64,000 bases of DNA, taken from the NCBI GenBank assembly GCA_033675265.1, contig JAUJYZ010001116.1, positions 301,501-365,500 on the forward strand. The letters run 5' to 3'. The notes below the pieces were generated by a model that was not told the origin of the DNA, searched no databases, and worked only from the letters and a program-made list of their open reading frames with translations. Position numbers and translations under genes: made by a program. Positions 37,448 through 64,000 of the stretch are shown here, in pieces. Source of the DNA: Actinostola sp. cb2023 (Eukaryota > Cnidaria > Anthozoa > Actiniaria > Actinostolidae). How positions within the stretch are numbered: position 1 is the stretch's first letter; every line of letters begins with the position of its first letter.

Positions 37448-40400
37448 ATGTCAGCGTTAAAGATGTAAGTATTCCAACACAATGTCCATATAAAATTGTT
37501 GAACTTGTCTTGGAAAAGTTTCAATTTGTACTTTTGCTCTAAAATACGACATGACATGATTGTTTTCTTCAGACTTGTTTGCGGTGAGGTTAATGGCAGG
37601 ATAAATCAGATGTATAACAGGGTCAAGAATATTTTAAAGAAAAACCAGGACTTTGAGGTATTAAAAGAAGATATGGTGATATGATGCAAGTTATGCATTA
37701 TGTTATGCGTTATGCATTATGCAATTATGTTCTACACGACCCCACAAGCTTTAGCTTTAAATATTATCGTGTTTAAATAAAAGTTATTGTATTGTATTGT
37801 ATTGTAAGTGGTGTTAATGATGATGGTAATGACAATGATCGATGATTAATTAGTGATATTGATGATTGATTTCAATGATAATGATGATGATTGATGGCAA
37901 TGATGATGATGATGATTGATGGCAATGATGATGATTGACAGACCTGCCAACCCCCCGAGCCCTCAAATCTTGAGACTGGGAAAAATAGGCTAAATTAGCG
38001 TGCTTTAATACCAAAAGCAAAATGGCGGACAACCCTGAACATTTCCGAACCTCTCCCCCCCCCCCCCTTCTTAAAATAAAATAAACAAGGAGATTTGTAT
38101 CGCCTGATAACGCCTGATAATCGAATGAACGAGCGTTTCACATAAAAAGACGCATATTCTGGTATTGAAAAGGATCGTTACGTTGTATTACGCAATTTCA
38201 CCGTAAATCGTGTTTAGCCGGGAGATTTTGTCTTCAAACCGGGAGACCGGGAGTTGAGGTCCAAAATCTGGAGACTCCCGGCTAAACCGGGAGAGTTGGC
38301 AGATGATGATGATTGATCAATGACAGCAATGATTAATTTATTTAATGATGATGACGATTGATGACATTAATTATGATGATGATTAAGTGATGATAATATT
38401 ACTGATGTCAATATTGATGATGATGATGGTGATGATGATGATTGATCAATGACAGCAATGATTAATTTATTTAATGATGATGACGATTGATGACATTAAT
38501 TATGATGATGATTAAGTGATAACATGTATTACTGATGTCAATATTGATGATGATGATGGTGATGATGATGATTGATCAATGACAGCAATGATTAATTTAT
38601 TTAATGATGATGACGATTGATGACATTAATTATGATGATGATTAAGTGATAACATGTATTACTGATGTCAATATTGATGATGATGATGGTGATGATGATG
38701 ATTGATCAATGACAGCAATGATTAATTTATTTAATGATGATGACGATTGATGACATTAATTATGATGATGATTAAGTGATAACATGTATTACTGATGTCA
38801 ATATTGATGATGATGATGGTGATGATGATGATTGATCAATGACAGCAATGATTAATTTATTTAATGATGATGCATGACGATTGATAACATGTATTACTGA
38901 TGTCAATATTGATGATGATGATGGTGATGATGATGATTGATCAATGACAGCAATGATTAATTTATTTAATGATGATGACGATTGATGACATTAATTATGA
39001 TGATGATTAAGTGATAACATGTATTACTGATGTCAATATTGATGATGATGATGGTGATGATGATTATTTCATATAGATGCTGCTGTGTGTTGGTAGTTTT
39101 TTTGGTACAGATGACAAGGAATGGGATACTTATATCAATGGTGAATCATTGGCACCTATTATTACGTACATTCTTGGTCCGAATGATCCCGTAGAAATGA
39201 AGTACTTTGACCCATCTTTCTTAGAAGATGGTAAAGAGCTTTGTGAAAATATCACTTACTTAGGTATGAAACATTTAGTAGATTTGTGGTTGACACTTTG
39301 CAGTAAACATAACAATGGTTTACCCCCTGGGGGGAGGAGAGGGGGTTATTCAATGTAAAAAGGGTAGGGATGACTGTCGGAAAACCTAGAAAAATACCAG
39401 AAAAATTTCCCACCCTAAAAAAATACCTCATGGTCTAAAATTCACCCTAGAAATGCGCTTTTTCCAAGTTTCATATCCTACCAGTCTATCTATCTATCAT
39501 CTATCTATCTACAAAATACCAGTCTTTAAAAAATGGATTCGCTTGACCAACTCCAAAAAATAATACTGGATTGCCAATTTCAAACCCTAAAAAATATGGC
39601 GATCACCCATCACCCCTACATGCGAAATAGGAAGAACCAACCCCCTAGGGGGATTTACATTGTGTTCACCTATACTGATGACATCACTGTAATAACTCTT
39701 ATATACAATCAATATACACAGGGAGGAAAGGAATCTTAACAACTCCATCAGGATTACAGATAGCATATCTTAGTGGAGCTGATAATACTGTAATAACTCT
39801 TATATACAATCAATACACACAGGGAGGAAAGGAATCTTAACAACTCCATCAGGATTACAGATAGCATATCTCAGTGGAGCTGATAACACTGAAGGACTCA
39901 AAGTAAGTTGTAGCTTTTCTATGATTCTCTACTTCATTTCTCTTTGACCAAGTGTCTCAATACAGACATGCCATAATTATATCTCCATGGGGGGTGCCTC
40001 GCATGGGTACTCATGTACCGTTCGTACCCATTTGGGTTTCCAATTTATTTATTTCTTCAGTGTATTTTCTTGTTATATATATATATTGTTTTAGTATGTA
40101 ATCTTAGTAGTAGTTTTTACACAATTCAGCTATCCAGCTGCAATAGTATTTACTAATAATAAACTATCTATCTATCTATCTATCTAGTAGCTACATGTAG
40201 TTTAACCCAATAAAGTTTATTAAAAAAATTAAAAAAATCTCAATATTACAATATTAGTTTAATTATTATCAAGTGATTTGTTGTACGTAAGTCATGTGAT
40301 AGCTAGGGAATGACTGTCAGTAATGTTTAATAATAATAATGTTTGTATATGTCTATTGAATAGGATGGAAGTGTCTTTACTGTTGAAGATGCTGAAGCTC

Positions 40401-40882: not shown

Positions 40883-43800
40883 ATTATTACTGTTACTACT
40901 ATTATAAATAAACTATTATTATTATTATTATGACTTTCATCTCAAGTGGTCACGCAGTAAGTTATACAATCAGTGGTAATAAAGTGGTGCAGATACTGTC
41001 TCATATGTCATGTGATCTAATACTATTATTAAATCTTATTATTATTATTAAATTATTATTTATCAGGCTGATCTTGACTCTCTTCCTGGTGGTTCGAAAC
41101 TCACTTCCAAACTTGCATATAAACTCCGTCCTAGGTACCATTTCTGTAGTTCAGATGATTTACACTATGAAAGAGTACCCTACAGGTTAGTGTGTAGGCG
41201 AGAGGTGCTCAGTTCGATTCTTAATGACCTCAAAGTAGTCCTGGCTGTTCAGATTCAGCAATCCCAGCTGACTGCTGTTACCATTCTGTCGATTCAGCAA
41301 TCCCAGCTGACTGCTGTTACCATAGTAACTGTCAATTCAACAATCCCAGCTGACTGCTGTTACCATTCTGTCGATTCAGCAATCCCAGCTGACTGCTGTT
41401 ACCATTCTGTCGATTCAGCAATCCCAGCTGACTGCTGTTACCATTCTGTCGATTCAGCAATCCCAGCTGACTGCTGTTACCATAGTAACTGTCAATTCAA
41501 CAATCCCAGCTGACTGCTGTTACCATTCTGTCGATTCAGCAATCCCAGCTGACTGCTGTTACCATTCTGTCGATTCAGCTGACTGCTGTTACCATTCTGT
41601 CGATTCAGCAATCCAGCTGACTGCTGTTACTAGTAACTGTCAATTCAACAATCCCATGACTGCTGTTACCATTCTGTCGATTCAGCAATCCCAGCTGACT
41701 GCTGTTACCATAGTAACTGTCGTTTCAGCAATCCCAGCTGACTGCTGTTACCATAGTAACTGTCGATTCAGCAATCCCAGCTGACTGCTGTTACCATAGT
41801 AACTGTTGATTCAGCAATCCCAGCTGACTTCTGTTACTATAGTAACTGTCGATTCAGCAATCCCAGCTGACTTCTGTTACTATAGTAACTGTTGATTCAG
41901 CAATCCCAGCTGACTTCTGTTACTATAGTAACTGTCGATTCAGCAATCCCAGCTGACTGCTGTTATCATAGTAACTGTCATTTATAATATAGGAATCACC
42001 AAGTTCTACGAGAACCATCTAGACACGTCACCAGGTTCATCTCTCTGTCTTGTGTAGGAAACAAGCAGAAAAGAAAGGTTTGATGTTTCATTATTACTTT
42101 ATAAATTAATATTCTACGATATCTAATACATAAAAGAGAAAAACCAACTAACTGGTCCTATGTCACTGGTTGTGTTATAAACTTGGTATGTATGTGTTTT
42201 GCAAATCACCCCTCCCCTCACAAAAAATCATCTCTGGCTCACAAAAAAAAATACCCCTGCAAAAAATCACCCCCTCCCCTCACAAAAAAGTCACTCCTCA
42301 CAAAAGAAAATCACCCCTCACAAAAAAATCACCCCTCCCCTCACAAAAAAATTCACACCTGCCTCACAAAAAATTCACACAGGTCTGCCTCACAAAAAAT
42401 TCACCCTCACAAATAATCACCCCTCCCCTCACAAAAAAAATCACCCCTGCCTCACAAAAAATTCAGCCCTGCCTCACAAAAAAAATAATCACCCCTCCCC
42501 TCACAAAATTAATTTTATATAACTGCAGTTCTAATATCCCACATGTACCACTGAACTTTCTTGGTGTATATGGTCTATATACTAGCTAGTGTATGCAATC
42601 ATTGTTTTACTTTATATGTTCTAGTATATGTATGCATTCAATATTGTTCCAATGTGTAACATGGTCTATATACTAGTGTATGCAATCATTGTCTTACTTT
42701 ATATGTTCTAGTATATGTATGCATTCAATATTGTTCCAATGTGTGGTCTATATACTAGCTAGTGTATGCAATCATTGTTTTACTTTATATGTTCTAGTAT
42801 ATGTATGCATTCAATATTGTTCCAATGTGTGGTCTATATACTAGTGTATGCAATCATTGTCTTACTTTATATGTTCTAGTATATGTATGCATTCAATATT
42901 GTTCCAATGTGTGGTCTATATACTAGCTAGTGTATGCAATCATTGTTTTACTTTATATGTTCTAGTATATGTACGCATTCAATATTGTTCCAATGTATGG
43001 TCTATATATAGCTAGTGTATGCAATCATTGTCTTACTTTATATGTTCTAGTATATGTATGCATTCAATATTGTTCCAATGTGTGGTCTATATACTAGTGT
43101 ATGCAATCATTGTCTTACTTTATATGTTCTAGTATATGTATGCATTCAATATTGTTCCAATGTGTGGTCTATATACTAGTGTATGCAATCATTGTCTTAC
43201 TTTATATGTTCTAGTATATGTATGCATTCAATATTGTTCCAATGTATGGTCTATATATATGTATGCAATCATTGTCTTACTTTATATGTTCTATATGTAT
43301 GCATTCAATATTGTTCCAATGTATGGTCTATATACTAGTGTATGCAATCATTGTCTTACTTTATATGTTCTAGTATATGTATGCATTCAATATTGTTCCA
43401 ATGTATGGTCTATATACTAGTGTATGCAATCATTGTCTTACTTTATATGTTCTAGTATATGTATGCATTCAATATTGTTCCAATGTATGGTCTATATATA
43501 CTAGTGTATGCAATCATTGTCTTACTTTATATGTTCTAGTATATGTATGCATTCAATATTGTTCCAATGTGTGGTCTATATACTACTAGTGTATGCAATC
43601 ATTGTCTTACTTTATATGTTCTAGTATATGTATGCATTCAATATTGTTCCAATGTATGGTCTATATACTAGTGTATGCAATCATTGTCTTACTTTATATG
43701 TTCTAGTATATGTATGCATTCAATATTGTTCCAATGTATGGTCTATATATACTAGTGTATGCAATCATTGTCTTACTTTATATGTTCTAGTATATGTATG

Positions 43801-46800
43801 GTCTGCATTCAATATTGTTCCAATGTATGGTCTATATACTAGTGTATGCAATCATTGTCTTACTTTATATGTTCTAGTATATGTATGCATTCAATATTGT
43901 TCCAATGTATGGTCTATATACTAGTGTATGCAATCATTGTCTTACTTTATATGTTCTAGTATATGTATGCATTCAATATTGTTCCAATGTATGGTCTATA
44001 TACTAGTGTATGCAATCATTGTCTTACTTTATATGTTCTAGTATATGTATGCATTCAATATTGTTCCAATGTATGGTCTATATACTAGTGTATGCAATCA
44101 TTGTCTTACTTTATATGTTCTAGTATATGTATGCATTCAATATTGTTCCAATGTATGGTCTATATACTAGTGTATGCAATCATTGTCTTACTTTATATGT
44201 TCTAGTATATGTATGCATTCAATATTGTTCCAATGTATGGTCTATATACTAGTGTATGCAATCATTGTCTTACTTTATATGTTCTAGTATATGTATGCAT
44301 TCAATATTGTTCCAATGTATGGTCTATATACTAGTGTATGCAATCATTGTCTTACTTTATATGTTCTAGTATATGTATGCATTCAATATTGTTCCAATGT
44401 ATGGTCTATATACTAGTGTATGCAATCATTGTCTTACTTTATATGTTCTAGTATATGTATGCATTCAATATTGTTCCAATGTATGGTCTATATACTAGTG
44501 TATGCAATCATTGTCTTACTTTATATGTTCTAGTATATGTATGCATTCAATATTGTTCCAATGTATGGTCTATATACTAGCTAGTGTATGCAATCATTGT
44601 CTTACTTTATATGTTCTAGTATATGTATGCATTCAATATTGTTCCAATGTATGGTCTATATACTAGTGTATGCAATCATTGTCTTACTTTATATGTTCTA
44701 GTATATGTATGCATTCAATATTGTTCCAATGTATGGTCTATATACTAGCTAGTGTATGCAATCATTGTCTTACTTTATATGTTCTAGTATATGTATGCAT
44801 TCAATATTGTTCCAATGTGTGGTCTATATACTAGCTAGTGTATGCAATCATTGTCTTACTTTATATGTTCTAGTATATGTATGCATTCAATATTGTTCCA
44901 ATGTATGGTCTATATACTAGCTAGTGTATGCAATCATTGTCTTACTTTATATGTTCTAGTATATGTATGCATTCAATATTGTTCCAATGTATGGTCTATA
45001 TACTAGCTAGTGTATGCAATCATTGTCTTACTTTATATGTTCTAGTATATGTATGCATTCAATATTGTTCCAATGTATGGTCTATATACTAGTGTATGCA
45101 ATCATTGTCTTACTTTATATGTTCTAGTATATGTATGCATTCAATATTGTTCCAATGTATGGTCTATATACTAGTGTATGCAATCATTGTCTTACTTTAT
45201 ATGTTCTAGTATATGTATGCATTCAATATTGTTCCAATGTATGGTCTATATACTAGCTAGTGTATGCAATCATTGTCTTACTTTATATGTTCTAGTATAT
45301 GTATGCATTCAATATTGTTCCAATGTATGGTCTATATACTAGTGTATGCAATCATTGTCTTACTTTATATGTTCTAGTATATGTATGCATTCAATATTGT
45401 TCCAATGTATGGTCTATATACTAGTGTATGCAATCATTGTCTTACTTTATATGTTCTAGTATATGTATGCATTCAATATTGTTCCAATGTGTGGTCTATA
45501 TACTAGTGTATGCAATCATTGTCTTACTTTATATGTTCTAGTATAGTGTATTGTTCCAAATGGTCTATCTAGTGTATGCAATCATTGTCTACTTTATATG
45601 TTCTAGTATATGTATGCATTCAATATTGTTCCAATGTATGGTCTATATACTAGTGTATGCAATCATTGTCTTACTTTATATGTTCTAGTATATGTATGCA
45701 TTCAATATTGTTCCAATGTATGGTCTATATACTAGTGTATGCAATCATTGTCTTACTTTATATGTTCTAGTATATGTATGCATTCAATATTGTTCCAATG
45801 TGTGGTCTATATACTAGTGTATGCAATCATTGTCTTACTTTATATGTTCTAGTATATGTATGCATTCAATATTGTTCCAATGTGTGGTCTATATATACTA
45901 GTGTATGCAATCATTGTCTTACTTTATATGTTCTAGTATATGTATGCATTCAATATTGTTCCAATGTGTGGTCTATATACTAGCTAGTGTATGCAATCAT
46001 TGTCTTACTTTATATGTTCTAGTATATGTATGCATTCAATATTGTTCCATTGTGTGGTCTATATACTAGTGTATGCAATCATTGTCTTACTTTATATGTT
46101 CTAGTATATGTATGCATTCAATATTGTTCCAATGTGTGGTCTATATATACTAGTGTATGCAATCATTGTCTTACTTTATATGTTCTAGTATATGTATGCA
46201 TTCAATATTGTTCCAATGTATGGTCTATATACTAGTGTATGCAATCATTGTCTTACTTTATATGTTCTAGTATATGTATGCATTCAATATTGTTCCAATG
46301 TATGGTCTATATATACTAGTGTATGCAATCATTGTCTTACTTTATATGTTCTAGTATATGTATGCATTCAATATTGTTCCAATGTATGGTCTATATACTA
46401 GCTAGTGTATGCAATCATTGTCTTACTTTATATGTTCTAGTATATGTATGCATTCAATATTGTTCCAATGTATGGTCTATATACTAGTAGTGTATGCAAT
46501 CATTGTCTTACTTTATATGTTCTAGTATATGTATGCATTCAATATTGTTCCAATGTATGGTGGTCAATATACTAGCTAGTATATGTATGCAATCATTGTA
46601 CTAGTGTTACATTGTTTATATGTTCTAGTATATGTATGCATTCAATATTGTTCCAATGTATGGTCTATATACTAGTGTATGCAATCATTGTCTTACTTTA
46701 TATGTTCTAGTATATGTATGCATTCAATATTGTTCCAATGTATGGTCTATATACTACTAGTGTATGCAATCATTGTCTTACTTTATATGTTCTAGTATAT

Positions 46801-49800
46801 GTATGCATTCAATATTGTTCCAATGTATGGTCTATATACTAGTGTATGCAATCATTGTCTTACTTTATATGTTCTAGTATATGTATGCATTCAATATTGT
46901 TCCAATGTATGGTCTATATACTAGCTAGTGTATGCAATCATTGTCTTACTTTATATGTTCTAGTATATGTATGCATTCAATATTGTTCCAAATGGTCTAT
47001 ATACTAGTGTATGGTCTATATACTACTATATACTAGTGTATGCAATCATTGTCTTACTTTATATGTTCTAGTATATGTATGCATTCAATATTGTTCCAAT
47101 GTGTGGTCTATATACTAGCTAGTGTATGCAATCATTGTTTTACTTTATATGTTCTAGTATATGTATGCATTCAATATTGTTCCAATGTGTGGTCTATATA
47201 CTAGTGTATGCAATCATTGTCTTACTTTATATGTTCTAGTATATGTATGCATTCAATATTGTTCCAATGTGTGGTCTATATACTAGTGTATGCAATCATT
47301 GTCTTACTTTATATGTTCTAGTATATGTATGCATTCAATATTGTTCCAATGTGTGGTCTATATACTAGCTAGTGTATGCAATCATTGTCTTACTTTATAT
47401 GTTCTAGTATATGTATGCATTCAATATTGTTCCAATGTATGGTCTATATACTAGCTAGTGTATGCAATCATTGTCTTACTTTATATGTTCTAGTATATGT
47501 ATGCATTCAATATTGTTCCAATGTATGGTCTATATACTAGCTAGTGTATGCAATCATTGTCTTACTTTATATGTTCTAGTATATGTATGCATTCAATATT
47601 GTTCCAATGTATGGTCTATATACTACTAGTGTATGCAATCATTGTCTTACTTTATATGTTCTAGTATATGTATGCATTCAATATTGTTCCAATGTGTGGT
47701 CTATATACTAGTGTATGCAATCATTGTCTTACTTTATATGTTCTAGTATATGTATGCATTCAATATTGTTCCAATGTATGGTCTATATACTAGCTAGTGT
47801 ATGCAATCATTGTCTTACTTTATATGTTCTAGTATATGTATGCATTCAATATTGTTCCAATGTATGGTCTATATACTACTAGTGTATGCAATCATTGTCT
47901 TACTTTATATGTTCTAGTATATGTATGCATTCAATATTGTTCCAATGTGTGGTCTATATATACTAGTGTATGCAATCATTGTCTTACTTTATATGTTCTA
48001 GTATATGTATGCATTCAATATTGTTCCAATGTGTGGTCTATATATACTAGTGTATGCAATCATTGTCTTACTTTATATGTTCTAGTATATGTATGCATTC
48101 AATATTGTTCCAATGTATGGTCTATATACTAGTGTATGCAATCATTGTCTTACTTTATATGTTCTAGTATATGTATGCATTCAATATTGTTCCAATGTGT
48201 GGTCTATATATACTAGTGTATGCAATCATTGTCTTACTTTATATGTTCTAGTATATGTATGCATTCAATATTGTTCCAATGTATGGTCTATATACTAGTG
48301 TATGCAATCATTGTCTTACTTTATATGTTCTAGTATATGTATGCATTCAATATTGTTCCAATGTATGGTCTATATACTACTAGTGTATGCAATCATTGTC
48401 TTACTTTATATGTTCTAGTATATGTATGCATTCAATATTGTTCCAATGTATGGTCTATATACTAGCTAGTGTATGCAATCATTGTCTTACTTTATATGTT
48501 CTAGTATATGTATGCATTCAATATTGTTCCAATGTATGGTCTATATACTAGTGTATGCAATCATTGTCTTACTTTATATGTTCTAGTATATGTATGCATT
48601 CAATATTGTTCCAATGTATGGTCTATATACTAGTGTATGCAATCATTGTCTTACTTTATATGTTCTAGTATATGTATGCATTCAATATTGTTCCAATGTG
48701 TGGTCTATATACTAGTGTATGCAATCATTGTCTTACTTTATATGTTCTAGTATATGTATGCATTCAATATTGTTCCAATGTATGGTCTATATACTAGTGT
48801 ATGTATGCAATCATTGTCATTTACTTTATATGTTGCAATATTGTCTTATATGTTCTAGTATATGTATGCATTCAATATTGTTCCAATGTATGGTCTATAT
48901 ACTAGTGTATGCAATCATTGTCTTACTTTATATGTTCTAGTATATGTATGCATTCAATATTGTTCCAATGTATGGTCTATATACTAGTGTATGCAATCAT
49001 TGTCTTACTTTATATGTTCTAGTATATGTATGCATTCAATATTGTTCCAATGTATGGTCTATATACTAGTGTATGCAATCATTGTCTTACTTTATATGTT
49101 CTAGTATATGTATGCATTCAATATTGTTCCAATGTATGGCTATATACTAGTGTATGCAATCATTGTCTTACTTTATATGTTCTAGTATATGTATGCATTC
49201 AATATTGTTCCAATGTATGGTCTATATACTAGTGTATGCAATCATTGTCTTACTTTATATGTTCTAGTATATGTATGCATTCAATATTGTTCCAATGTAT
49301 GGTATATATATACTAGTGTATGCAATCATTGTCTTACTTTATATGTTCTAGTATATGTATGCATTCAATATTGTTCCAATGTATGGTCTATATACTACTA
49401 GTGTATGCAATCATTGTCTTACTTTATATGTTCTAGTATATGTATGCATTCAATATTGTTCCAATGTATGGTCTATATATATACTAGTGTATGCAATCAT
49501 TGTCTTACTTTATATGTTCTAGTATATGTATGCATTCAATATTGTTCCAATGTATGGTCTATATACTAGTGTATGCAATCATTGTCTTACTTTATATGTT
49601 CTAGTATATGTATGCATTCAATATTGTTCCAATGTTGGTCTATATATACTAGTGTATGCAATCATTGTCTTACTTTATATGTTCTAGTATATGTATGCAT
49701 TCAATATTGTTCCAATGTATGGTCTATATACTAGTGTATGCAATCATTGTCTTACTTTATATGTTCTAGTATATGTATGCATTCAATATTGTTCCAATGT

Positions 49801-52800
49801 ATGGTCTATATATACTAGTGTATGCAATCATTGTCTTACTTTATATGTTCTAGTATATGTATGCATTCAATATTGTTCCAATGTATGGTCTATATACTAG
49901 TGTATGCAATCATTGTCTTACTTTATATGTTCTAGTATATGTATGCATTCAATATTGTTCCAATGTATGGTCTATATACTAGTGTATGCAATCATTGTCT
50001 TACTTTATATGTTCTAGTATATGTATGCATTCAATATTGTTCCAATGTATGGTCTATATACTACTAGTGTATGCAATCATTGTCTTACTTTATATGTTCT
50101 AGTATATGTATGCATTCAATATTGTTCCAATGTATGGTCTATATACTAGTGTATGCAATCATTGTCTTACTTTATATGTTCTAGTATATGTATGCATTCA
50201 ATATTGTTCCAATGTATGGTCTATATATACTAGTGTATGCAATCATTGTCTTACTTTATATGTTCTAGTATATGTATGCATTCAATATTGTTCCAATGTA
50301 TGGTCTATATATACTAGTGTATGCAATCATTGTCTTACTTTATATGTTCTAGTATATGTATGCATTCAATATTGTTCCAATGTATGGTCTATATACTAGC
50401 TAGTGTATGCAATCATTGTCTTACTTTATATGTTCTAGTATATGTATGCATTCAATATTGTTCCAATGTATGGTCTATATACTAGTGTATGCAATCATTG
50501 TCTTACTTTATATGTTCTAGTATATGTATGCATTCAATATTGTTCCAATGTATGGTCTATATACTAGCTAGTGTATGCAATCATTGTCTTACTTTATATG
50601 TTCTAGTATGTATGCATTCAATATTGTTCCAATGTGTATGGTCTATATATACTAGTGTATGCAATCATTGTCTTACTTTATATGTTCTAGTATATGTATG
50701 CATTCAATATTGTTCCAATGTATGGTCTATATACTAGCTAGTGTATGCAATCATTGTCTTACTTTATATGTTCTAGTATATGTATGCATTCAATATTGTT
50801 CCAATGTATGGTCTATATACTAGTGTATGCAATCATTGTCTTACTTTATATGTTCTAGTATATGTATGCATTCAATATTGTTCCAATGTATGGTCTATAT
50901 ATATACTAGTGTATGCAATCATTGTCTTACTTTATATGTTCTAGTATATGTATGCATTCAATATTGTTCCAATGTATGGTCTATATACTAGTGTATGCAA
51001 TCATTGTCTTACTTTATATGTTCTAGTATATGTATGCATTCAATATTGTTCCAATGTGTGGTCTATATACTAGTGTATGCAATCATTGTCTTACTTTATA
51101 TGTTCTAGTATATGTATGCATTCAATATTGTTCCAATGTATGGTCTATATACTAGTGTATGCAATCATTGTCTTACTTTATATGTTCTAGTATATGTATG
51201 CATTCAATATTGTTCCAATGTATGGTCTATATACTAGTGTATGCAATCATTGTCTTACTTTATATGTTCTAGTATATGTATGCATTCAATATTGTTCCAA
51301 TGTGTATGGTCTATATACTAGTGTGTATGCAATCATTGTCTTACTTTATATGTTCTAGTATATGTATGCATTCAATATTGTTCCAATGTATGGTCTATAT
51401 ACTAGTGTATGCAATCATTGTCTTACTTTATATGTTCTAGTATATGTATGCATTCAATATTGTTCCAATGTGTGGTCTATATATACTAGTGTATGCAATC
51501 ATTGTCTTACTTTATATGTTCTAGTATATGTATGCATTCAATATTGTTCCAATGTATGGTCTATATATACTAGTGTATGCAATCATTGTCTTACTTTATA
51601 TGTTCTAGTATATGTATGCATTCAATATTGTTCCAATGTATGGTCTATATACTAGTGTATGCAATCATTGTCTTACTTTATATGTTCTAGTATATGTATG
51701 CATTCAATATTGTTCCAATGTATGGTCTATATACTAGTGTATGCAATCATTGTCTTACTTTATATGTTCTAGTATATGTATGCATTCAATATTGTTCCAA
51801 TGTATGGTCTATATACTAGCTAGTGTATGCAATCATTGTCTTACTTTATATGTTCTAGTATATGTATGCATTCAATATTGTTCCAAATGTATGGTCTATA
51901 TACTAGTGTATGCAATCATTGTCTTACTTTATATGTTCTAGTATATGTATGCATTCAATATTGTTCCAATGTATGGTCTATATACTAGTGTATGCAATCA
52001 TTGTCTTACTTTATATGTTCTAGTATATGTATGCATTCAATATTGTTCCAATGTATGGTCTATATACTAGTGTATGCAATCATTGTCTTACTTTATATGT
52101 TCTAGTATATGTATGCATTCAATATTGTTCCAATGTATGGTCTATATACTAGTGTATGCAATCATCATTGTCTTACTTTATATGTTCTAGTATATGTATG
52201 CATTCAATATTGTTCCAATGTATGGTCTATATACTACTAGTGTATGCAATCATTGTCTTACTTTATATGTTCTAGTATATGTATGCATTCAATATTGTTC
52301 CAATGTATGGTCTATATACTAGTGTATGCAATCATTGTCTTACTTTATATGTTCTAGTATATGTATGCATTCAATATTGTTCCAATGTATGGTCTATATA
52401 CTAGCTAGTGTATGCAATCATTGTCTTACTTTATATGTTCTAGTATATGTATGCATTCAATATTGTTCCAATGTATGGTCTATATACTAGTGTATGCAAT
52501 CATTGTCTTACTTTATATGTTCTAGTATATGTATGCATTCAATATTGTTCCAATGTATGGTCTATATACTAGTGTGTATGCAATCATTGTCTTACTTTAT
52601 ATGTTCTAGTATATGTATGCATTCAATATTGTTCCAATGTATGGTCTATATACTAGTGTATGCAATCATTGTCTTACTTTATATGTTCTAGTATATGTAT
52701 GCATTCAATATTGTTCCAATGTATGGTCTATATACTAGCTAGTGTATGCAATCATTGTCTTACTTTATATGTTCTAGTATATGTATGCATTCAATATTGT

Positions 52801-55800
52801 TCCAATGTATGGTCTATATATACTAGTGTATGCAATCATTGTCTTACTTTATATGTTCTAGTATATGTATGCATTCAATATTGTTCCAATGTGTGGTCTA
52901 TATACTAGTGTATGCAATCATTGTCTTACTTTATATGTTCTAGTATATGTATGCATTCAATATTGTTCCAATGTATGGTCTATATACTAGTGTATGCAAT
53001 CATTGTCTTACTTTATATGTTCTAGTATATGTATGCATTCAATATTGTTCCAATGTATGGTCTATATATACTAGTGTATGCAATCATTGTCTTACTTTAT
53101 ATGTTCTAGTATATGTATGCATTCAATATTGTTCCAATGTATGGTCTATATACTAGTGTATGCAATCATTGTCTTACTTTATATGTTCTAGTATATGTAT
53201 GCATTCAATATTGTTCCAATGTATGGTCTATATACTACTAGTGTATGCAATCATTGTCTTACTTTATATGTTCTAGTATATGTATGCATTCAATATTGTT
53301 CCAATGTATGGTCTATATACTAGTGTATGCAATCATTGTCTTACTTTATATGTTCTAGTATATGTATGCATTCAATATTGTTCCAATGTGTGGTCTATAT
53401 ATACTAGTGTATGCAATCATTGTCTTACTTTATATGTTCTAGTATATGTATGCATTCAATATTGTTCCAATGTGTGGTCTATATACTAGTGTATGCAATC
53501 ATTGTCTTACTTTATATGTTCTAGTATATGTATGCATTCAATATTGTTCCAATGTATGGTCTATATACTAGTGTATGCAATCATTGTCTTACTTTATATG
53601 TTCTAGTATATGTATGCATTCAATATTGTTCCAATGTATGGTCTATATACTAGTGTATGCAATCATTGTCTTACTTTATATGTTCTAGTATATGTATGCA
53701 TTCAATATTGTTCCAATGTATGGTCTATATACTAGTGTATGCAATCATTGTCTTACTTTATATGTTCTAGTATATGTATGCATTCAATATTGTTCCAATG
53801 TATGGTCTATATACTAGTGTATGCAATCATTGTCTTACTTTATATGTTCTAGTATATGTATGCATTCAATATTGTTCCAATGTATGGTCTATATACTACT
53901 AGTGTATGCAATCATTGTCTTACTTTATATGTTCTAGTATATGTATGCATTCAATATTGTTCCAATGTATGGTCTATATACTAGTGTATGCAATCATTGT
54001 CTTACTTTATATGTTCTAGTATATGTATGCATTCAATATTGTTCCAATGTATGGTCTATATACTAGTGTATGCAATCATTGTCTTACTTTATATGTTCTA
54101 GTATATGTATGCATTCAATATTGTTCCAATGTATGGTCTATATACTAGTGTATGCAATCATTGTCTTACTTTATATGTTCTAGTATATGTATGCATTCAA
54201 TATTGTTCCAATGTATGGTCTATATACTAGTGTATGCAATCATTGTCTTACTTTATATGTTCTAGTATATGTATGCATTCAATATTGTTCCAATGTATGG
54301 TCTATATACTAGTGTATGCAATCATTGTCTTACTTTATATGTTCTAGTATATGTATGCATTCAATATTGTTCCAATGTATGGTCTATATACTAGTGTATG
54401 CAATCATTGTTTTACTTTATATGTTCTAGTATATGTATGCATTCAATATTGTTCCAATGTGTGGTCTATATACTAGTGTATGCAATCATTGTCTTACTTT
54501 ATATGTTCTAGTATATGTATGCATTCAATATTGTTCCAATGTATGGTCTATATACTAGTGTATGCAATCATTGTCTTACTTTATATGTTCTAGTATATGT
54601 ATGCATTCAATATTGTTCCAATGTATGGTCTATATATACTAGTGTATGCAATCATTGTCTTACTTTATATGTTCTAGTATATGTATGCATTCAATATTGT
54701 TCCAATGTATGGTCTATATACTAGTGTATGCAATCATTGTCTTACTTTATATGTTCTAGTATATGTATGCATTCAATATTGTTCCAATGTATGGTCTATA
54801 TACTAGTGTATGCAATCATTGTCTTACTTTATATGTTCTAGTATATGTATGCATTCAATATTGTTCCAATGTATGGTCTATATACTAGTGTATGCAATCA
54901 TTGTCTTACTTTATATGTTCTAGTATATGTATGCATTCAATATTGTTCCAATGTATGGTCTATATACTAGTGTATGCAATCATTGTCTTACTTTATATGT
55001 TCTAGTATATGTATGCATTCAATATTGTTCCAATGTATGGTCTATATACTAGTGTATGCAATCATTGTCTTACTTTATATGTTCTAGTATATGTATGCAT
55101 TCAATATTGTTCCAATGTATGGTCTATATACTAGTGTATGCAATCATTGTCTTACTTTATATGTTCTAGTATATGTATGCATTCAATATTGTTCCAATGT
55201 GTATGGTCTATATACTAGTGTATGCAATCATTGTCTTACTTTATATGTTCTAGTATATGTATGCATTCAATATTGTTCCAATGTATGGTCTATATACTAG
55301 TGTATGCAATCATTGTCTTACTTTATATGTTCTAGTATATGTATGCATTCAATATTGTTCCAATGTATGGTCTATATACTAGTGTATGCAATCATTGTCT
55401 TACTTTATATGTTCTAGTATATGTATGCATTCAATATTGTTCCAATGTATGGTCTATATACTAGTGTATGCAATCATTGTCTTACTTTATATGTTCTAGT
55501 ATATGTATGCATTCAATATTGTTCCAATGTATGGTCTATATACTAGTGTATGCAATCATTGTCTTACTTTATATGTTCTAGTATATGTATGCATTCAATA
55601 TTGTTCCAATGTATGGTCTATATACTAGTGTATGCAATCATTGTCTTACTTTATATGTTCTAGTATATGTATGCATTCAATATTGTTCCAATGTATGGTC
55701 TATATACTAGTGTATGCAATCATTGTCTTACTTTATATGTTCTAGTATATGTATGCATTCAATATTGTTCCAATGTATGGTCTATATACTAGTGTATGCA

Positions 55801-58800
55801 ATCATTGTCTTACTTTATATGTTCTAGTATATGTATGCATTCAATATTGTTCAAATGTATGGTCTATATACTAGTGTATGCAATCATTGTCTTACTTTAT
55901 ATGTTCTAGTATATGTATGCATTCAATATTGTTCCAATGTATGGTCTATATACTAGTGTATGCAATCATTGTCTTACTTTATATGTTCTAGTATATGTAT
56001 GCATTCAATATTGTTCCAATGTGTGGTCTATATACTAGTGTATGCAATCATTGTCTTACTTTATATGTTCTAGTATATGTATGCATTCAATATTGTTCCA
56101 ATGTATGGTCTATATACTAGTGTATGCAATCATTGTCTTACTTTATATGTTCTAGTATATGTATGCATTCAATATTGTTCCAATGTATGGTCTATATACT
56201 AGTGTATGCAATCATTGTCTTACTTTATATGTTCTAGTATATGTATGCATTCAATATTGTTCCAATGTATGGTCTATATACTAGTGTATGCAATCATTGT
56301 CTTACTTTATATGTTCTAGTATATGTATGCATTCAATATTGTTCCAATGTATGGTCTATATACTAGTGTATGCAATCATTGTCTTACTTTATATGTTCTA
56401 GTATATGTATGCATTCAATATTGTTCCAATGTATGGTCTATATACTAGTGTATGCAATCATTGTCTTACTTTATATGTTCTAGTATATGTATGCATTCAA
56501 TATTGTTCCAATGTATGGTCTATATACTAGTGTATGCAATCATTGTCTTACTTTATATGTTCTAGTATATGTACGCGCATTCAATATTGTTCCAATGTGT
56601 GGTCTATATACTAGTGTATGCAATCATTGTCTTACTTTATATGTTCTAGTATATGTATGCATTCAATATTGTTCCAATGTGTGGTCTATATACTAGTGTA
56701 TGCAATCATTGTCTTACTTTATATGTTCTAGTATATGTATGCATTCAATATTGTTCCAATGTATGGTCTATATACTAGTGTATGCAATCATTGTCTTACT
56801 TTATATGTTCTAGTATATGTATGCATTCAATATTGTTCCAATGTATGGTCTATATACTAGTGTATGCAATCATTGTCTTACTTTATATGTTCTAGTATAT
56901 GTATGCATTCAATATTGTTCCAATGTATGGTCTATATACTAGTGTATGCAATCATTGTCTTACTTTATATGTTCTAGTATATGTATGCATTCAATATTGT
57001 TCCAATGTATGGTCTATATACTAGTGTATGCAATCATTGTCTTACTTTATATGTTCTAGTATATGTATGCATTCAATATTGTTCCAATGTATGGTCTATA
57101 TACTAGTGTATGCAATCATTGTCTTACTTTATATGTTCTAGTATATGTATGCATTCAATATTGTTCCAATGTATGGTCTATATACTAGTGTATGCAATCA
57201 TTGTCTTACTTTATATGTTCTAGTATATGTATGCATTCAATATTGTTCCAATGTATGGTCTATATACTAGTGTATGCAATCATTGTCTTACTTTATATGT
57301 TCTAGTATATGTATGCATTCAATATTGTTCCAATGTATGGTCTATATACTAGTGTATGCAATCATTGTCTTACTTTATATGTTCTAGTATATGTACGCAT
57401 TCAATATTGTTCCAATGTATGGTCTATATACTAGTGTATGCAATCATTGTCTTACTTTATATGTTCTAGTATATGTATGCATTCAATATTGTTCCAATGT
57501 ATGGTCTATATACTAGTGTATGCAATCATTGTCTTACTTTATATGTTCTTTATATGTAGTATATGTATGCATTCAATATTGTTCCAATGTATGGTCTATA
57601 TACTAGTGTATGCAATCATTGTCTTACTTTATATGTTCTAGTATATGTATGCATTCAATATTGTTCCAATGTATGGTCTATATACTAGTGTATGCAATCA
57701 TTGTCTTACTTTATATGTTCTAGTATATGTATGCATTCAATATTGTTCCAATGTATGGTCTATATACTAGTGTATGCAATCATTGTCTTACTTTATATGT
57801 TCTAGTATATGTATGCATTCAATATTGTTCCAATGTATGGTCTATATACTAGTGTATGCAATCATTGTCTTACTTTATATGTTCTAGTATATGTATGCAT
57901 TCAATATTGTTCCAATGTATGGTCTATATACTAGTGTATGCAATCATTGTCTTACTTTATATGTTCTAGTATATGTATGCATTCAATATTGTTCCAATGT
58001 ATGGTCTATATACTAGTGTATGCAATCATTGTCTTACTTTATATGTTCTAGTATATGTATGCATTCAATATTGTTCCAATGTGTGGTCTATATACTAGTG
58101 TATGCAATCATTGTCTTACTTTATATGTTCTAGTATATGTACGCATTCAATATTGTTCCAATGTGTGGTCTATATACTAGTGTATGCAATCATTGTCTTA
58201 CTTTATATGTTCTAGTATATGTATGCATTCAATATTGTTCCAATGTATGGTCTATATATACTAGTGTATGCAATCATTGTCTTACTTTATATGTTCTAGT
58301 ATATGTATGCATTCAATATTGTTCCAATGTATGGTCTATATACTAGTGTATGCAATCATTGTCTTACTTTATATGTTCTAGTATATGTACGCATTCAATA
58401 TTGTTCCAATGTATGGTCTATATACTAGTGTATGCAATCATTGTCTTACTTTATATGTTCTAGTATATGTACGCATTCAATATTGTGGTCCAATGTATGG
58501 TCTGTATACTATGTTCTAGTATATGTACGCATGCAATCATTGTCTTACTTTATATGTTCTAGTATATGTACGCATTCAATATTGTTCCAATGTATGGTCT
58601 ATATACTAGTGTATGCAATCATTGTCTTACTTTATATGTTCTAGTATATGTACGCATTCAATATTGTTCCAATGTGTGGTCTATATACTAGTGTATGCAA
58701 TCATTGTCTTACTTTATATGTTCTAGTATATGTACGCATTCAATATTGTTCCAATGTATGGTCTATATACTAGTGTATGCAATCATTGTCTTACTTTATA

Positions 58801-61800
58801 TGTTCTAGTATATGTATGCATTCAATATTGTTCCAATGTATGGTCTATATACTAGTGTATGCAATCATTGTCTTACTTTATATGTTCTAGTATATGTATG
58901 CATTCAATATTGTTCCAATGTGTGGTCTATATACTAGTGTATGCAATCATTGTCTTACTTTATATGTTCTAGTATATGTATGCATTCAATATTGTTCCAA
59001 TGTATGGTCTATATACTAGTGTATGCAATCATTGTCTTACTTTATATGTTCTAGTATATGTACGCATTCAATATTGTTCCAATGTATGGTCTATATACTA
59101 GTGTATGCAATCATTGTCTTACTTTATATGTTCTAGTATATGTATGCATTCAATATTGTTCCAATGTATGGTCTATATACTAGTGTATGCAATCATTGTC
59201 TTACTTTATATGTTCTAGTATATGTATGCATTCAATATTGTTCCAATGTATGGTCTATATACTAGTGTATGCAATCATTGTCTTACTTTATATGTTCTAG
59301 TATATGTATGCATTCAATATTGTTCCAATGTATGGTCTATATACTAGTGTATGCAATCATTGTCTTACTTTATATGTTCTAGTATATGTACGCATTCAAT
59401 ATTGTTCCAATGTATGGTCTATATACTAGTGTATGCAATCATTGTCTTACTTTATATGTTCTAGTATATGTATGCATTCAATATTGTTCCAATGTATGGT
59501 CTATATACTAGTGTATGCAATCATTGTCTTACTTTATATGTTCTAGTATATGTACGCATTCAATATTGTTCCAATGTATGGTCTATATACTAGTGTATGC
59601 AATCATTGTCTTACTTTATATGTTCTAGTATATGTATGCATTCAATATTGTTCCAATGTATGGTCTATATACTAGTGTATGCAATCATTGTCTTACTTTA
59701 TATGTTCTAGTATATGTATGCATTCAATATTGTTCCAATGTATGGTCTATATACTAGTGTATGCAATCATTGTCTTACTTTATATGTTCTAGTATATGTA
59801 CGCATTCAATATTGTTCCAATGTATGGTCTATATACTAGTGTATGCAATCATTGTCTTACTTTATATGTTCTAGTATATGTATGCATTCAATATTGTTCC
59901 AATGTATGGTCTATATACTAGTGTATGCAATCATTGTCTTACTTTATATGTTCTAGTATATGTATGCATTCAATATTGTTCCAATGTATGGTCTATATAC
60001 TAGTGTATGCAATCATTGTCTTACTTTATATGTTCTAGTATATGTACGCATTCAATATTGTTCCAATGTATGGTCTATATACTAGTGTATGCAATCATTG
60101 TCTTACTTTATATGTTCTAGTATATGTACGCATTCAATATTGTTCCAATGTGTGGTCTATATACTAGTGTATGCAATCATTGTCTTACTTTATATGTTCT
60201 AGTATATGTATGCATTCAATATTGTTCCAATGTATGGTCTATATACTAGTGTATGCAATCATTGTCTTACTTTATATGTTCTAGTATATGTATGCATTCA
60301 ATATTGTTCCAATGTATGGTCTATATACTAGTGTATGCAATCATTGTCTTACTTTATATGTTCTAGTATATGTACGCATTCAATATTGTTCCAATGTATG
60401 GTCTATATACTAGTGTATGCAATCATTGTCTTACTTTATATGTTCTAGTATATGTACGCATTCAATATTGTTCCAATGTATGGTCTATATACTAGTGTAT
60501 GCAATCATTGTCTTACTTTATATGTTCTAGTATATGTACGCATTCAATATTGTTCCAATGTATGGTCTATATACTAGTGTATGCAATCATTGTCTTACTT
60601 TATATGTTCTAGTATATGTATGCATTCAATATTGTTCCAATGTATGGTCTATATACTAGTGTATGCAATCATTGTCTTACTTTATATGTTCTAGTATATG
60701 TACGCATTCAATATTGTTCCAATGTGTGGTCTATATACTAGTGTATGCAATCATTGTCTTACTTTATATGTTCTAGTATATGTATGCATTCAATATTGTT
60801 CCAATGTATGGTCTATATACTAGTGTATGCAATCATTGTCTTACTTTATATGTTCTAGTATATGTACGCATTCAATATTGTTCCAATGTATGGTCTATAT
60901 ACTAGTGTATGCAATCATTGTCTTACTTTATATGTTCTAGTATATGTATGCATTCAATATTGTTCCAATGGTCTATATACTAGTGTATGCAATCATTGTC
61001 TTACTTTATATGTTCTAGTATATGTATGCATTCAATATTGTTCCAATGTATGGTCTATATACTAGTGTATGCAATCATTGTCTTACTTTATATGTTCTAG
61101 TATATGTATGCATTCAATATTGTTCCAATGTATGGTCTATATACTAGTGTATGCAATCATTGTCTTACTTTATATGTTCTAGTATATGTATGCATTCAAT
61201 ATTGTTCCAATGTATGGTCTATATACTAGTGTATGCAATCATTGTCTTACTTTATATGTTCTAGTATATGTATGCATTCAATATTGTTCCAATGTACTAG
61301 TGGTCTATATACTAGTATATGTATGCAATCATTGTCTTACTTTATATGTTCTAGTATATGTATGCATTCAATATTGTTCCAATGTATGGTCTATATACTA
61401 GTGTATGCAATCATTGTCTTACTTTATATGTTCTAGTATATGTATGCATTCAATATTGTTCCAATGTATGGTCTATATACTAGTGTATGCAATCATTGTC
61501 TTACTTTATATGTTCTAGTATATGTATGCATTCAATATTGTTCCAATGTATGGTCTATATACTAGTGTATGCAATCATTGTCTTACTTTATATGTTCTAG
61601 TATATGTATGCATTCAATATTGTTCCAATGTATGGTCTATATACTAGTGTATGCAATCATTGTCTTACTTTATATGTTCTAGTATATGTACGCATTCAAT
61701 ATTGTTCCAATGTATGGTCTATATACTAGTGTATGCAATCATTGTCTTACTTTATATGTTCTAGTATATGTATGCATTCAATATTGTTCCAATGTGTGGT

Positions 61801-62712
61801 CTATATACTAGTGTATGCAATCATTGTCTTACTTTATATGTTCTAGTATATGTACGCATTCAATATTGTTCCAATGTGTGGTCTATATACTAGTGTATGC
61901 AATCATTGTCTTACTTTATATGTTCTAGTATATGTACGCATTCAATATTGTTCCAATGTGTGGTCTATATACTAGTGTATGCAATCATTGTCTTACTTTA
62001 TATGTTCTAGTATATGTACGCATTCAATATTGTTCCAATGTATGGTCTATATACTAGTGTATGCAATCATTGTCTTACTTTATATGTTCTAGTATATGTA
62101 CGCATTCAATATTGTTCCAATGTGTAACATGGTATATATACTAGTGTATGCAATCATTGTCTTACTTTATATGTTCTAGTATATGTACGCATTCAATATT
62201 GTTCCAATGTGTGGTCTATATACTAGTGTATGCAATCATTGTCTTACTTTATATGTTCTAGTATATGTACGCATTCAATATTGTTCCAATGTATGGTCTA
62301 TATACTAGTGTATGCAATCATTGTCTTACTTTATATGTTCTAGTATATGTACGCATTCAATATTGTTCCAATGTGTAACATGGTATATATACTAGTGTAT
62401 GCAATCATTGTCTTACTTTATATGTTCTAGTATATGTACGCATTCAATATTGTTCCAATGTGTAACATGGAAAAAGATAAACTCACTGAGCAGCCTGAGG
62501 ACGTCACAGAATTACCATACAATAAACTATTACTGAGTTCATCAAAAGCTGATAGCAAACAGGTATTCCTGGTTATACTTTAATCAACTATTGTACTAAA
62601 TAGTGAATTTATAAAGAATGTTTTAAAATGTCACAGTCCTCAGAGAAGGGTGGATTCTTCTATGACATGAGCCACTCAGAAGGGCATGGTCAAAAGAGAA
62701 GAGGGCATCAAG
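37448..62712 (+). CDS. CWF19L1: CWF19-like protein 1, N-terminal nine exons (gene continues off the right edge)
   Basis: CWF19L1 is the animal homologue of yeast Drn1, which assists the lariat debranching enzyme; its N-terminal domain resembles that of Dbr1. Exons: 37448-37464, 37573-37657, 39077-39263, 39823-39902, 40364-40495, 41067-41185, 41993-42077, 62431-62562 and 62637-62712. Phases all close. Conserved parts include ILVCGEVNGRINQMYNRV, LLCVGSFFGTDDKEWDTY, YILGPND, ENITYLG|GRKGILTT, LRPRYHFCSSDDLHYERVPY, NHQVLREPSRHVTRFISL, YMYAFNIVPM and GGFFYDM. Human CWF19L1 has GDVEG where this protein has GEVNG. The CwfJ C-terminal domains lie beyond 64000. Intron 7 is about 20.4 kb and consists almost entirely of the 82-base junction satellite. 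The exon 8 choice at 62431 is forced: only that copy reads on into CNMEKDKLTEQPEDVTE. Confidence 0.92.
37735..37806 (+). mobile_element. Non-LTR retroelement 3' tail (ATTGT repeats)
   Basis: CCCACAAGCTTTAGCTTTAA and TTTAAATAAAAGTTATTGTA are followed by tandem ATTGT pentamers, the form of a LINE or SINE 3' end. It lies in intron 2 of CWF19L1. Confidence 0.55.
37942..38303. mobile_element. TIR element, copy 2 (CCTGCCAAC ends)
   Basis: It starts CCTGCCAACCCCCCGAGCCC and ends CCGGGAGAGTTGGCAG, as in copy 1 at 3873-4101. This copy is longer, keeping extra interior (including a C-run near 38058) that the first copy has lost. It is inserted in GAT-rich sequence of CWF19L1 intron 2. Confidence 0.8.
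38304..39070. repeat. 130-base tandem repeat, about six copies
   Basis: ATTGATCAATGACAGCAATG starts at 38312, 38441, 38571, 38701, 38831 and 38936, so the unit is 130 bases with one shortened copy. The unit is itself GAT-rich and contains GATGACATTAATTATGATGA. The array ends a few bases before the acceptor of exon 3 (39077). Confidence 0.9.
39318..39655. mobile_element. Possible TIR element with CCCCCTGGGGGG ends
   Basis: TTTACCCCCTGGGGGGAGGA at the left and CCAACCCCCTAGGGGGATTT at the right are each self-complementary. The interior has CCTAAAAAAATACC-like blocks similar in style to the elements at 8025 and 20592. It sits in CWF19L1 intron 3. Confidence 0.4.
39687..39822 (+). pseudogene. Upstream 101-base duplicate of CWF19L1 exon 4 with its acceptor
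   Basis: The acceptor and most of exon 4 occur twice, starting at 39722 and again at 39823. The first copy reads RKGILTTPSGLQIAYLSGAD but runs into intron sequence without a donor; read on, it meets TAA within 12 codons after the duplicate's end. The second copy ends ...GLK with donor GTAAG, so it is the true exon. Confidence 0.85.
39985..40215 (+). mobile_element. Non-LTR retroelement 3' region with (ATCT)n
   Basis: CATGGGTACTCATGTACCG and TTTGGGTTTCCAATTTATTT lead into an AT-rich stretch ending in AATAATAAACTATCTATCTA, a microsatellite tail typical of a LINE 3' end. No coding frame remains. Confidence 0.4.
40735..40925 (+). mobile_element. Retroposon-like sequence with poly(A) tail
   Basis: GGGCGAATCTTG is followed by 32 A (40849-40880) and then ATT trinucleotides. 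The uninterrupted A-run suggests a retroposed 3' end, but no source was recognised. Confidence 0.4.
41186..41240 (+). mobile_element. tRNA-like SINE fragment
   Basis: GTTAGTGTGTAGGCGAGAGG and the B-box-like AGTTCGATTC resemble the middle of the SINE at 7486-7722. It begins exactly at the donor of CWF19L1 exon 6, so the donor GTTAGT may be SINE-derived or coincidental. Confidence 0.45.
41248..41985. repeat. 39/43-base tandem repeat in CWF19L1 intron 6
   Basis: The core GATTCAGCAATCCCAGCTGA is followed by CTGCTGTTACC and one of two spacers: ATTCTGTC (39-base unit) or ATAGTAACTGTC (43-base unit). About 18 copies are present. The short spacer predominates early and the long one late. GTTACTATAGTAAC in late copies is a perfect palindrome. 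The array ends just before the exon 7 acceptor. Confidence 0.9.
42200..42508. repeat. TCACCCCTCACAAAAAA low-complexity repeat
   Basis: Irregular blocks of CCCCTCAC, CTGCCTCAC and A-runs alternate for about 300 bases at the start of CWF19L1 intron 7. The apparent Pro/Ser/Lys-rich frames are not genes. Confidence 0.85.
42571..62430 (+). repeat. 82-base satellite made of the intron 7/exon 8 junction of CWF19L1, about 240 copies
   Basis: The unit runs TGTATGCAATCATTGTC, TTACTTTATATGTTCTAG, then TATATGTATGCATTCAATAT, TGTTCCAATG, then TATGGTCTATATACTAG. Period 82 was measured between successive GTGTATGC starts (for example 59347 and 59429). Length variants come from an extra CTAG or extra TA steps near the unit end. 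The middle of the unit is identical to the end of intron 7 and the first 30 bases of exon 8 (codons YMYAFNIVPM). Each unit therefore holds a yUnAy-like CTTAC, a pyrimidine-rich stretch and TTCTAG. About 19.86 kb divided by the unit gives roughly 240 copies; I did not count each one. Confidence 0.97.
62431..62562 (+). other. CWF19L1: True exon 8 of CWF19L1 (last copy of the satellite junction)
   Basis: The exon starts right after TATGTTCTAG and encodes YMYAFNIVPMCNMEKDKLTE and on to SKADSKQ, ending at donor GTATTC. It has 44 codons, phase 0 at both ends. Its first 39-40 bases are the source, or last member, of the upstream array. The sequence TGTAACATGG that follows the shared part is also seen at 42651, 62122 and 62373, near the array ends. 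Confidence 0.92.
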
Positions 62713-62904: not shown

Positions 62905-64000
62905 GGAATGCATCAATCTTAGGCAGATGGGTGTCTGTCCAGAGACATTAATCTTAGGCAGATGGGTGTCTGTCCAGAGATATTAATCTTAGGCAGATGG
63001 GTGTCTGTCCAGAGATATTAATCTTAGGCAGATGGGTGTCTGTCCAGAGACATTAATCTTAGGCAGATGGGTGTCTGTCCAGAGACATTAATCTTAGGCA
63101 GATGGGTGTCTGTCCAGAGATATTAATCTTAGGCAGACGGGTGTCTATCCAGAGATATTAATCTTAGGCAGATGGGTGTCTATCCAGAGATATTAATCTT
63201 AGGCAGATGGGTGTCTATCCAGAGATATTAATCTTAGGCAGACGGGTGTCTATCCAGAGATATTAATCTTAGGCAGATGGGTGTCTATCCAGAGATATTA
63301 ATCTTAGGCAGATGGGTGTCTATCCAGAGATATTAATCTTAGGCAGATGGGTGTCTATCCAGAGATATTAATCTTAGGCAGATGGGTGTCTATCCAGAGA
63401 TATTAATCTTAGGCAGATGGGTGTCTGTCCAGAGATATTAATCTTAGGCAGATGGGTGTCTATCCAGAGATATTAATCTTAGGCAGATGGGTGTCTATCC
63501 AGAGATATTAATCTTAGGCAGATGGGTGTCTGTCCAGAGATATTAATCTTAGGCAGATGGGTGTCTGTCCAGAGACATTAATCTTAGGCAGATGGGTGTC
63601 TGTCCAGAGACATTACTCTTAGGCAGATGGGTGTCTGTCCAGAGATATTAATCTTTGGCAGATGGGTGTCTGTCCAGAGACATTAATCTTAGGCAGATGG
63701 GTGTCTGTCCAGAGAGATTAATCTTAGGCAGATGGGTGTCTGTCCAGAGACATTAATCTTAGGCAGATGGGTGTCTGTCCAGAGACATTAATCTTAGGCA
63801 GATGGGTGTCTGTCCAGAGATATTAATCTTAGGCAGATGGGTGTCTGTCCAGAGACATTAATCTTAGGCAGATGGGTGTCTGTCCAGAGACATTAATCTT
63901 AGGCAGATGGGTGTCTGTCCAGAGACATTAATCTTAGGCAGACGGGTGTCTGTCCAGAGACATTAATCTTAGGCAGACGGGTGTCTATCCAGAGATATTA
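62905..64000. repeat. 35-base minisatellite, about 31 copies, running off the window
   Basis: The unit is CTTAGGCAGATGGGTGTCTG followed by TCCAGAGACATTAAT; starts at 62953 and 62988 give the 35-base period. Main variants are TCTG/TCTA, GACATT/GATATT and CAGATGG/CAGACGG. The TCTA plus GATATT combination clusters between about 63140 and 63510. The right boundary is outside the window. Confidence 0.93.

Follow-up and report, generated by a model that had tools for sequence, protein, structure and literature searches.

Intron 7 of the CWF19L1 gene of Actinostola sp. cb2023, a deep-sea anemone of a hydrothermal vent according to its genome report (PMC10803348), is filled with tandem copies of its own 3' splice site together with the beginning of the exon that follows. 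The window analysed here is a stretch of 64,000 bases (contig JAUJYZ010001116.1, forward-strand positions 301,501 to 365,500), and coordinates are positions in it. The junction-derived array lies at 42574..62430 on the plus strand. It contains 236 exact TTTATATGTTCTAG acceptors, the last of which is the real one, and the 235 units between them fall into 39 types. We consider it likely that the array is a giant version of the repeats known as mirages in amphioxus, in which the intron 7/exon 8 junction was copied in tandem and likely expanded by unequal exchange, and in which only the last acceptor is predicted to be used.

Structure and source of the intron 7 array

Nine CWF19L1 exons with GT-AG introns were placed on the plus strand (37448-62712). 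Exons 1 to 7 (37448-37464, 37573-37657, 39077-39263, 39823-39902, 40364-40495, 41067-41185 and 41993-42077) follow from the spliced frame and from protein matches, and exon 9 (62637..62712) from the spliced frame. Exon 8 (62431..62562) has 132 bases and ends at the donor CAG/GTATTC, present once in the window. The spliced open frame encodes 304 residues and is 100% identical over 98% to the Actinostola protein QZH41_014727. The frame also matches two PDB entries under the name of CWF19-like protein 1 or of its homolog, with an E value of 4.4e-78 for chain 8ro2_L1 (CWF19-like protein 1). A Pfam search gave no family for the 304-residue model, for two single exons or for the long open frame of a kinase gene in the same window; PF04677 is among the precomputed domains of CWF19L1 relatives. 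The window contig is referred to below as C845. The analysed sequence stops at its position 367,500, 2 kb past the window, whereas the contig of QZH41_014727 is listed at 374,125 bases, and the last CWF19L1 exons are thus beyond the sequence analysed.

The end of exon 7 (42077) and the start of exon 8 (62431) are each in phase 0, and the sequence of QZH41_014727 is continuous over their join. An original prediction, made from the letters of the window, had proposed that these two exons join into CWF19L1 and that the array is inside the intron. The gene model bears this out, as a sensible model spans 42078-62430. The genome report describes the deposited models as built from protein homology and de novo prediction, not from RNA (PMC10803348). 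Intron 7 (42078..62430, plus strand) has 20353 bases, 99% of which are tandem repeat, made up of the junction array and a short imperfect array at 42203-42509.

The units of the junction array, mostly of 82-87 bp, are arranged head-to-tail over about 20 kb. Tandem Repeats Finder reports the array at 42586-62461 with periods of 164 and 246, and with a period of 82 in three adjoining rows (42586-48834, 48846-58511 and 58531-62461). The large size expected of a classical satellite is found, with 19.9 kb and 95% matches at period 246. The commonest unit has 82 bases (113 copies). The fullest, of 87 bp, consists of the first 40 bases of exon 8 and 47 bases of intron 7. Its template is the last unit (62384..62470, plus strand), in which the 47 bases of the intron end run into the opening 40 bases of exon 8. 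The final copy of TTTATATGTTCTAG, at 62417-62430, is the true exon 8 acceptor, and the 80 bases around this acceptor are found again without any difference (80/80) at 62053-62132 and at 62304-62383. Two traits of mirages are thereby present: the unit spans an exon-intron boundary of its host gene, and the splice signal is kept in the copies, both in the window and in the second array described below.

The original prediction had recognised the unit as the end of CWF19L1 intron 7 plus the start of exon 8, in about 240 tandem copies, and the counts agree with both points. The end that it gave for the array (62430) stands, but its start, 42571, has to be moved, as repeat-like sequence begins at 42574. 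It was also right about the codons YMYAFNIVPM, since 225 of the 235 units start with TATATGTA[TC]GCATTCAATATTGTTCCAATGT, which encodes these ten residues plus one base. As a limit of the exon part, however, ten codons are too few, given the 40 exon bases of the 87-bp form.

Copies are not evenly alike along the array. Full identity to the start of exon 8 is seen only in a few copies near the array ends; most copies have TAT for TAC and are without AACAT. The 87-bp form occurs once in the first tenth of the array and twice in the last tenth, and in none of the 188 units of the middle eight tenths. The two copies at the right end have exactly the 40 exon and 47 intron bases; the left-end copy is laid out alike but is slightly changed. 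The TAC of exon 8 is found in 27 of the 71 units of the final three tenths, and in 1 of the 164 units that precede them. At the donor-like site discussed below, 184 copies read CCAATGTATGG, 40 read CCAATGTGTGG and 4, including the real exon, read CCAATGTGTAACATGG. GC content is 0.284 in the array and 0.356 in exon 8. That the old form is kept at the ends and AACAT is missing from most inner copies indicates that the inside has been homogenised, as expected of tandem arrays.

The direction of copying can be read from the coding half of the unit. The decapeptide YMYAFNIVPM is identical in Nematostella and its counterpart in human CWF19L1 is YLYAFSIVPM. This conservation in other animals points to exon 8 as the source. 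The opposite order, in which a satellite already present in the intron came first and exon 8 later gained its acceptor inside it, would fit the presence of unrelated arrays in introns 2, 6 and 9, which stop 8, 22 and about 40 bases short of the exon behind them. Yet a satellite is unlikely to be older than a coding half shared with Nematostella and human, and we regard this order as extremely improbable. The intron half of the unit was also compared with the exon half as a possible older, decayed copy of it; 110 of 4000 shuffles reached the score, and the comparison was not used.

Copying from exon 8 may have left a trace at the 5' edge of the array. There, the intron flank GTGTATATGG (42564..42573, plus strand) shares ATGG, and also GTGTA, with GTGTAACATGG of exon 8, and we infer that this is the founding breakpoint. 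A shared ATGG is the kind of trace expected from a microhomology-joined duplication. The junction would thus have been copied in tandem, likely by such a duplication, and unequal exchange would likely have expanded the copies to 236 near-identical acceptors. Random breakpoint pairs in the less repetitive parts of the window share at least four bases in 2.4% of cases (0.024) and at least five in 0.8% (0.008); as the breakpoints were read after the fact, these figures give support and not proof.

A differently ordered array on a second contig

A search of the genome with exon 8 DNA gave 305 matches and, among the matches listed, all are on C845 or on a second contig, C1477, where exon 8 is found again on the minus strand. 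C1477 ends inside an array that holds 192 exact TTTATATGTTCTAG acceptors over 16.68 kb before exon 8, which is a lower bound. CTTACTTTATATGTTCTAG is present in 229 exact copies in the window; a count of the exact 19-mer in the whole genome, without places, gave 229 forward occurrences, the window's own number, and 158 reverse ones. For a 98-codon stretch encoded by the array (50103-50396), none of 165 candidates was a relative at E 0.001, and no other sequenced array was found in this way.

The contents of the two arrays differ. Unit types number 39 in the window and 71 on C1477, with 13 common to both, and the order of units is different. Stretches of 300 bases are shared at 540 positions, stretches of 500 bases at none. 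This bears on the idea that the assembler inflated a few junction copies, which the original prediction had named as the finding that would undo it. According to the genome report, the assembly was made from PacBio reads with 20-kb inserts using DBG2OLC, with Racon and Pilon polishing (PMC10803348). The array is about as long as these inserts, C1477 breaks inside its array, and the exact array length rests on one PacBio/DBG2OLC assembly. However, the window array contains no exact repeat of at least 900 bases, its 39 unit types follow one another without visible period, and like units cluster close to each other (lags 2-4), to a degree that none of 500 shuffles reaches. C1477 for its part has its own unit order and not one 500-mer in common with the window. 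That the array came out of the assembly twice, each time with other contents, makes an assembly loop unlikely, and inflation from a few copies we hold to be very unlikely. On the other side, like-unit clustering in the C1477 array is patchy and seen only at some lags.

C1477 is probably the other haplotype. Outside the repeats, an alignment by eye of about 500 bases shows 6 substitutions and a single indel of 15 bases relative to the window, a divergence near the genome heterozygosity, given as 0.9% in the genome report (PMC10803348). Two results weigh against allelism: a protein search of the genome found CWF19L1 exons 2-7 only on C845, and the 45 kb of C1477 that follow exon 10 yielded none of the later exons. 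The contig may thus be a non-allele, that is, a partial duplicate or a chimeric or rearranged contig.

The other side of exon 8 also differs between the contigs. On C1477 the exon 8 donor junction is present in four tandem copies, 76, 72 and 76 bases apart, against one in the window. Only the first of these donors keeps the frame, the later ones reading into VFLVIL and a stop; the first copy holds one further difference from the window. The donor repeat is apparently a young duplication of the junction at the other side of the exon. Between the contigs, the array thus differs in content and the donor junction in copy number (four against one), with the proviso that the C1477 array is partial and its allelic status only probable.

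Choice of the exon 8 acceptor

When exon 7 is joined to each of the 235 upstream acceptors and read through, no frame is open (0/235), and the first stop comes after 11-99 codons. The same is true of C1477, where 0 of 191 decoys are open and the first stop comes after 4-80 codons. We predict that only the last acceptor, before the true exon 8, is used. Any use of a decoy would lead to a premature stop and to nonsense-mediated decay, and the array would be near neutral save for the transcripts lost.

Several observations tell against this prediction. The real exon 8 acceptor scores -0.7 with a matrix of 15 other acceptors, the same as most decoys, and 279 of the 507 AG sites of the array score at least as high. 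The donor-like sequence AAT/GTATGG is present 186 times in the array, with a donor score of 5.8; the true donor of exon 8 scores 6.1 (leave-one-out), so that one cannot plainly say that the decoys lack a donor. The proximity rule of Reed and Maniatis, as told in PMC9225289, would let the first acceptor win and would spoil the transcript. The matrices are small and weak (15 acceptor and 17 donor sites), and the real acceptors themselves span -6.9 to 8.9.

As most decoys equal the real acceptor by this weak score, local strength is likely not decisive. Context does set the last acceptor apart: behind it lie a 132-base exon, its donor and an intron of 74 bases, and behind the decoys AT-rich repeat. 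This favours exon definition, which would pick the last copy for the exon and the short intron behind it. The decoys would mostly stay silent, as AT-rich repeat takes the place of an exon of normal size and its donor behind them. An RNA structure that hides the decoys was also considered but found no support: the 246 bases at 61600-61845 fold little better than their shuffles (z -1.56, 14/200).

The donor-like motif raises another scheme, in which each unit acts as an acceptor with a donor 29 bases on and the array is re-spliced in many small steps before exons 7 and 8 are joined. Both the number of AAT/GTATGG copies and their score, close to that of the real donor, are in line with it. Changes inside the array, apparently the loss of AACAT and then of GTGTGG in favour of GTATGG, also made the donor-like form the commonest. 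Yet a 29-base microexon shifts the frame. Joining exon 7 to a decoy creates the donor AAA/GTATAT, which lies one base within exon 7; re-splicing there would lose a base and again shift the frame. The window array lacks AGGT altogether, and the C1477 array has a single copy. Removal in small steps is in our view improbable. Strict recursive splicing, which in its classical form requires AG directly followed by GT, was rejected for lack of AGGT.

The array might instead serve as a regulatory decoy that titrates splicing factors or ties CWF19L1 output to splicing or lariat-turnover capacity, as a form of unproductive-splicing autoregulation. The homologue of CWF19L1 is Drn1, a binding partner of the debranching enzyme Dbr1 that promotes the turnover of branched RNA in yeast (PMC10470207), and each of the 235 decoys runs into a stop, which unproductive splicing would require. 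However, AT-rich repeats would contain stops by chance alone, and the window and C1477 arrays share little unit order. Similar duplications at exon 4 and in the kinase gene, described below, point to a mutational tendency of the locus and not to selection on CWF19L1. Human Drn1 gave no gain in Dbr1 kinetics in the assay of the same paper (PMC10470207), and the human ILS1 structure, formed after exon release, contained Cwf19L2 and not Cwf19L1 (PMC6461851). A regulatory decoy seems to us very improbable. A link between the array and a role of CWF19L1 in lariat turnover would be a tempting but speculative idea. Taken more broadly, a 235-to-1 acceptor contest, with a decoy array that repeated re-splicing removes or unproductive splicing adjusts and whose make-up, differing between copies, sets CWF19L1 output, has in our estimate a small chance of being correct.

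Junction duplications in the window and in other animals

Two further cases were found in the window. At intron 3/exon 4, a 101-bp unit is present twice over the acceptor (39685..39891, plus strand), with CACTG common to the breakpoints, and the upstream copy of the acceptor, if used, leads to a stop. In the kinase gene, 40 bases of exon K5 (31297-31389) are repeated just before its acceptor with an offset of 84 bases (31242..31389, plus strand), which we read as a truncated junction duplication. A 56-bp array (31018-31243) sits where the rest of the K5 duplicate would be. Coding sequence is repeated in the preceding intron for 3 of 18 exons in the window, all on the acceptor side. One of the 18, K1, is a mere part of a longer exon. 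The set offers 16 acceptor junctions and 17 donor junctions and leaves aside other genes of the window, namely the apparent RPS11 gene and those left of 29 kb.

Arrays unrelated to the junction array occupy three other CWF19L1 introns, all on the plus strand. An array with a period of 130 bp fills over half of intron 2 (38302..39068), stopping 8 bases before exon 3. A 43-bp array covers 89% of intron 6 (41252..41970) and stops 22 bases before exon 7. A 35-bp array in intron 9 (62915..64000) runs through 31 copies to the window end; on C1477 it has 109 copies and ends about 40 bases before exon 10. Repeat growth beside acceptors is common in CWF19L1.

Elsewhere in the window, tandem arrays with periods of 35 and 39 bases lie at 23132-23774 and 27687-28194; the latter is a 13-residue coding repeat with variants, kept inside the long open frame of the kinase gene. 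Exon K7 of this gene ends at 32995 with a GC donor (CTG/GCAAGT), as judged from the frame. The start of CWF19L1 is head to head (37268-37448) with a minus-strand gene that we take to be RPS11, recognised by eye.

The original prediction knew of no described case of a splice junction turned into a satellite. This claim does not hold, since minisatellites across exon-intron boundaries have been reported in amphioxus, in Adh3, in the globins BflGb6 and BflGb9 and in TnC, with similar repeats in PGBD5 (PMC3087553, PMC3902484). The name mirages was given in Adh3 and is also used for the globin and TnC cases. In both hosts the unit spans an exon-intron boundary and many copies retain the AG or GT signals; both 3' and 5' boundaries can be duplicated; and the inside is homogenised, cluster boundaries excluded. 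Copy number differs between haplotypes in amphioxus, and it may do so in Actinostola, where the two contigs, probably allelic, carry one and four copies of the donor junction. Somatic length instability is a reported feature of the Adh3 mirage.

Differences concern size, host and type of evidence. PMC3087553 gives 6 and 3 units of 150-160 bp for BflGb6 in two haplotypes, compared to 236 acceptors, units mostly of 82-87 bp and 20 kb here, with at least 192 acceptors in the second array. Regular splicing of BflGb6 is suggested by RT-PCR in that paper; for the Actinostola gene it is a prediction. Unlike in amphioxus, the host is a cnidarian, and both acceptor and donor repeats are found at one exon (exon 8 on C1477). 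A literature search, with most subscription papers outside its reach, gave no cnidarian example of boundary-spanning repeats. In the traits that could be compared, the Actinostola array agrees with the definition of a mirage, and we regard it as the same phenomenon; what is new is its scale, its phylum and the turnover between two copies.

Other systems are more distant. Human internal tandem repeats at exon-intron boundaries in segmental duplications likewise alter gene structure, but average 30-bp units, 4 copies and 160 bp, with half in coding sequence (PMC2812944). The gigantic introns of Drosophila Y genes (kl-3, kl-5) also contain satellite DNA, though of simple type such as (AATAT)n, extending over megabases and not described there as copies of the genes' own splice junctions (PMC6508621). 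Intron gain by tandem genomic duplication likewise yields splice-site copies from genic sequence, but it creates a new intron (PMC4974935), whereas in Actinostola an existing intron grows.

With 235 equal or near-equal sites before the right one, each of which would spoil the protein, rules that choose the acceptor nearest to the donor or the strongest site would both fail at CWF19L1. The locus is thus a ready-made test of which context makes an acceptor real. It also shows, within one gene, apparent stages in the birth of an array, from the two-copy exon 4 acceptor through the four-copy exon 8 donor, seen on one contig, to the finished 20-kb array. If other cnidarian genes share this habit, junction duplication would be a wider route of intron growth than the amphioxus cases suggest.

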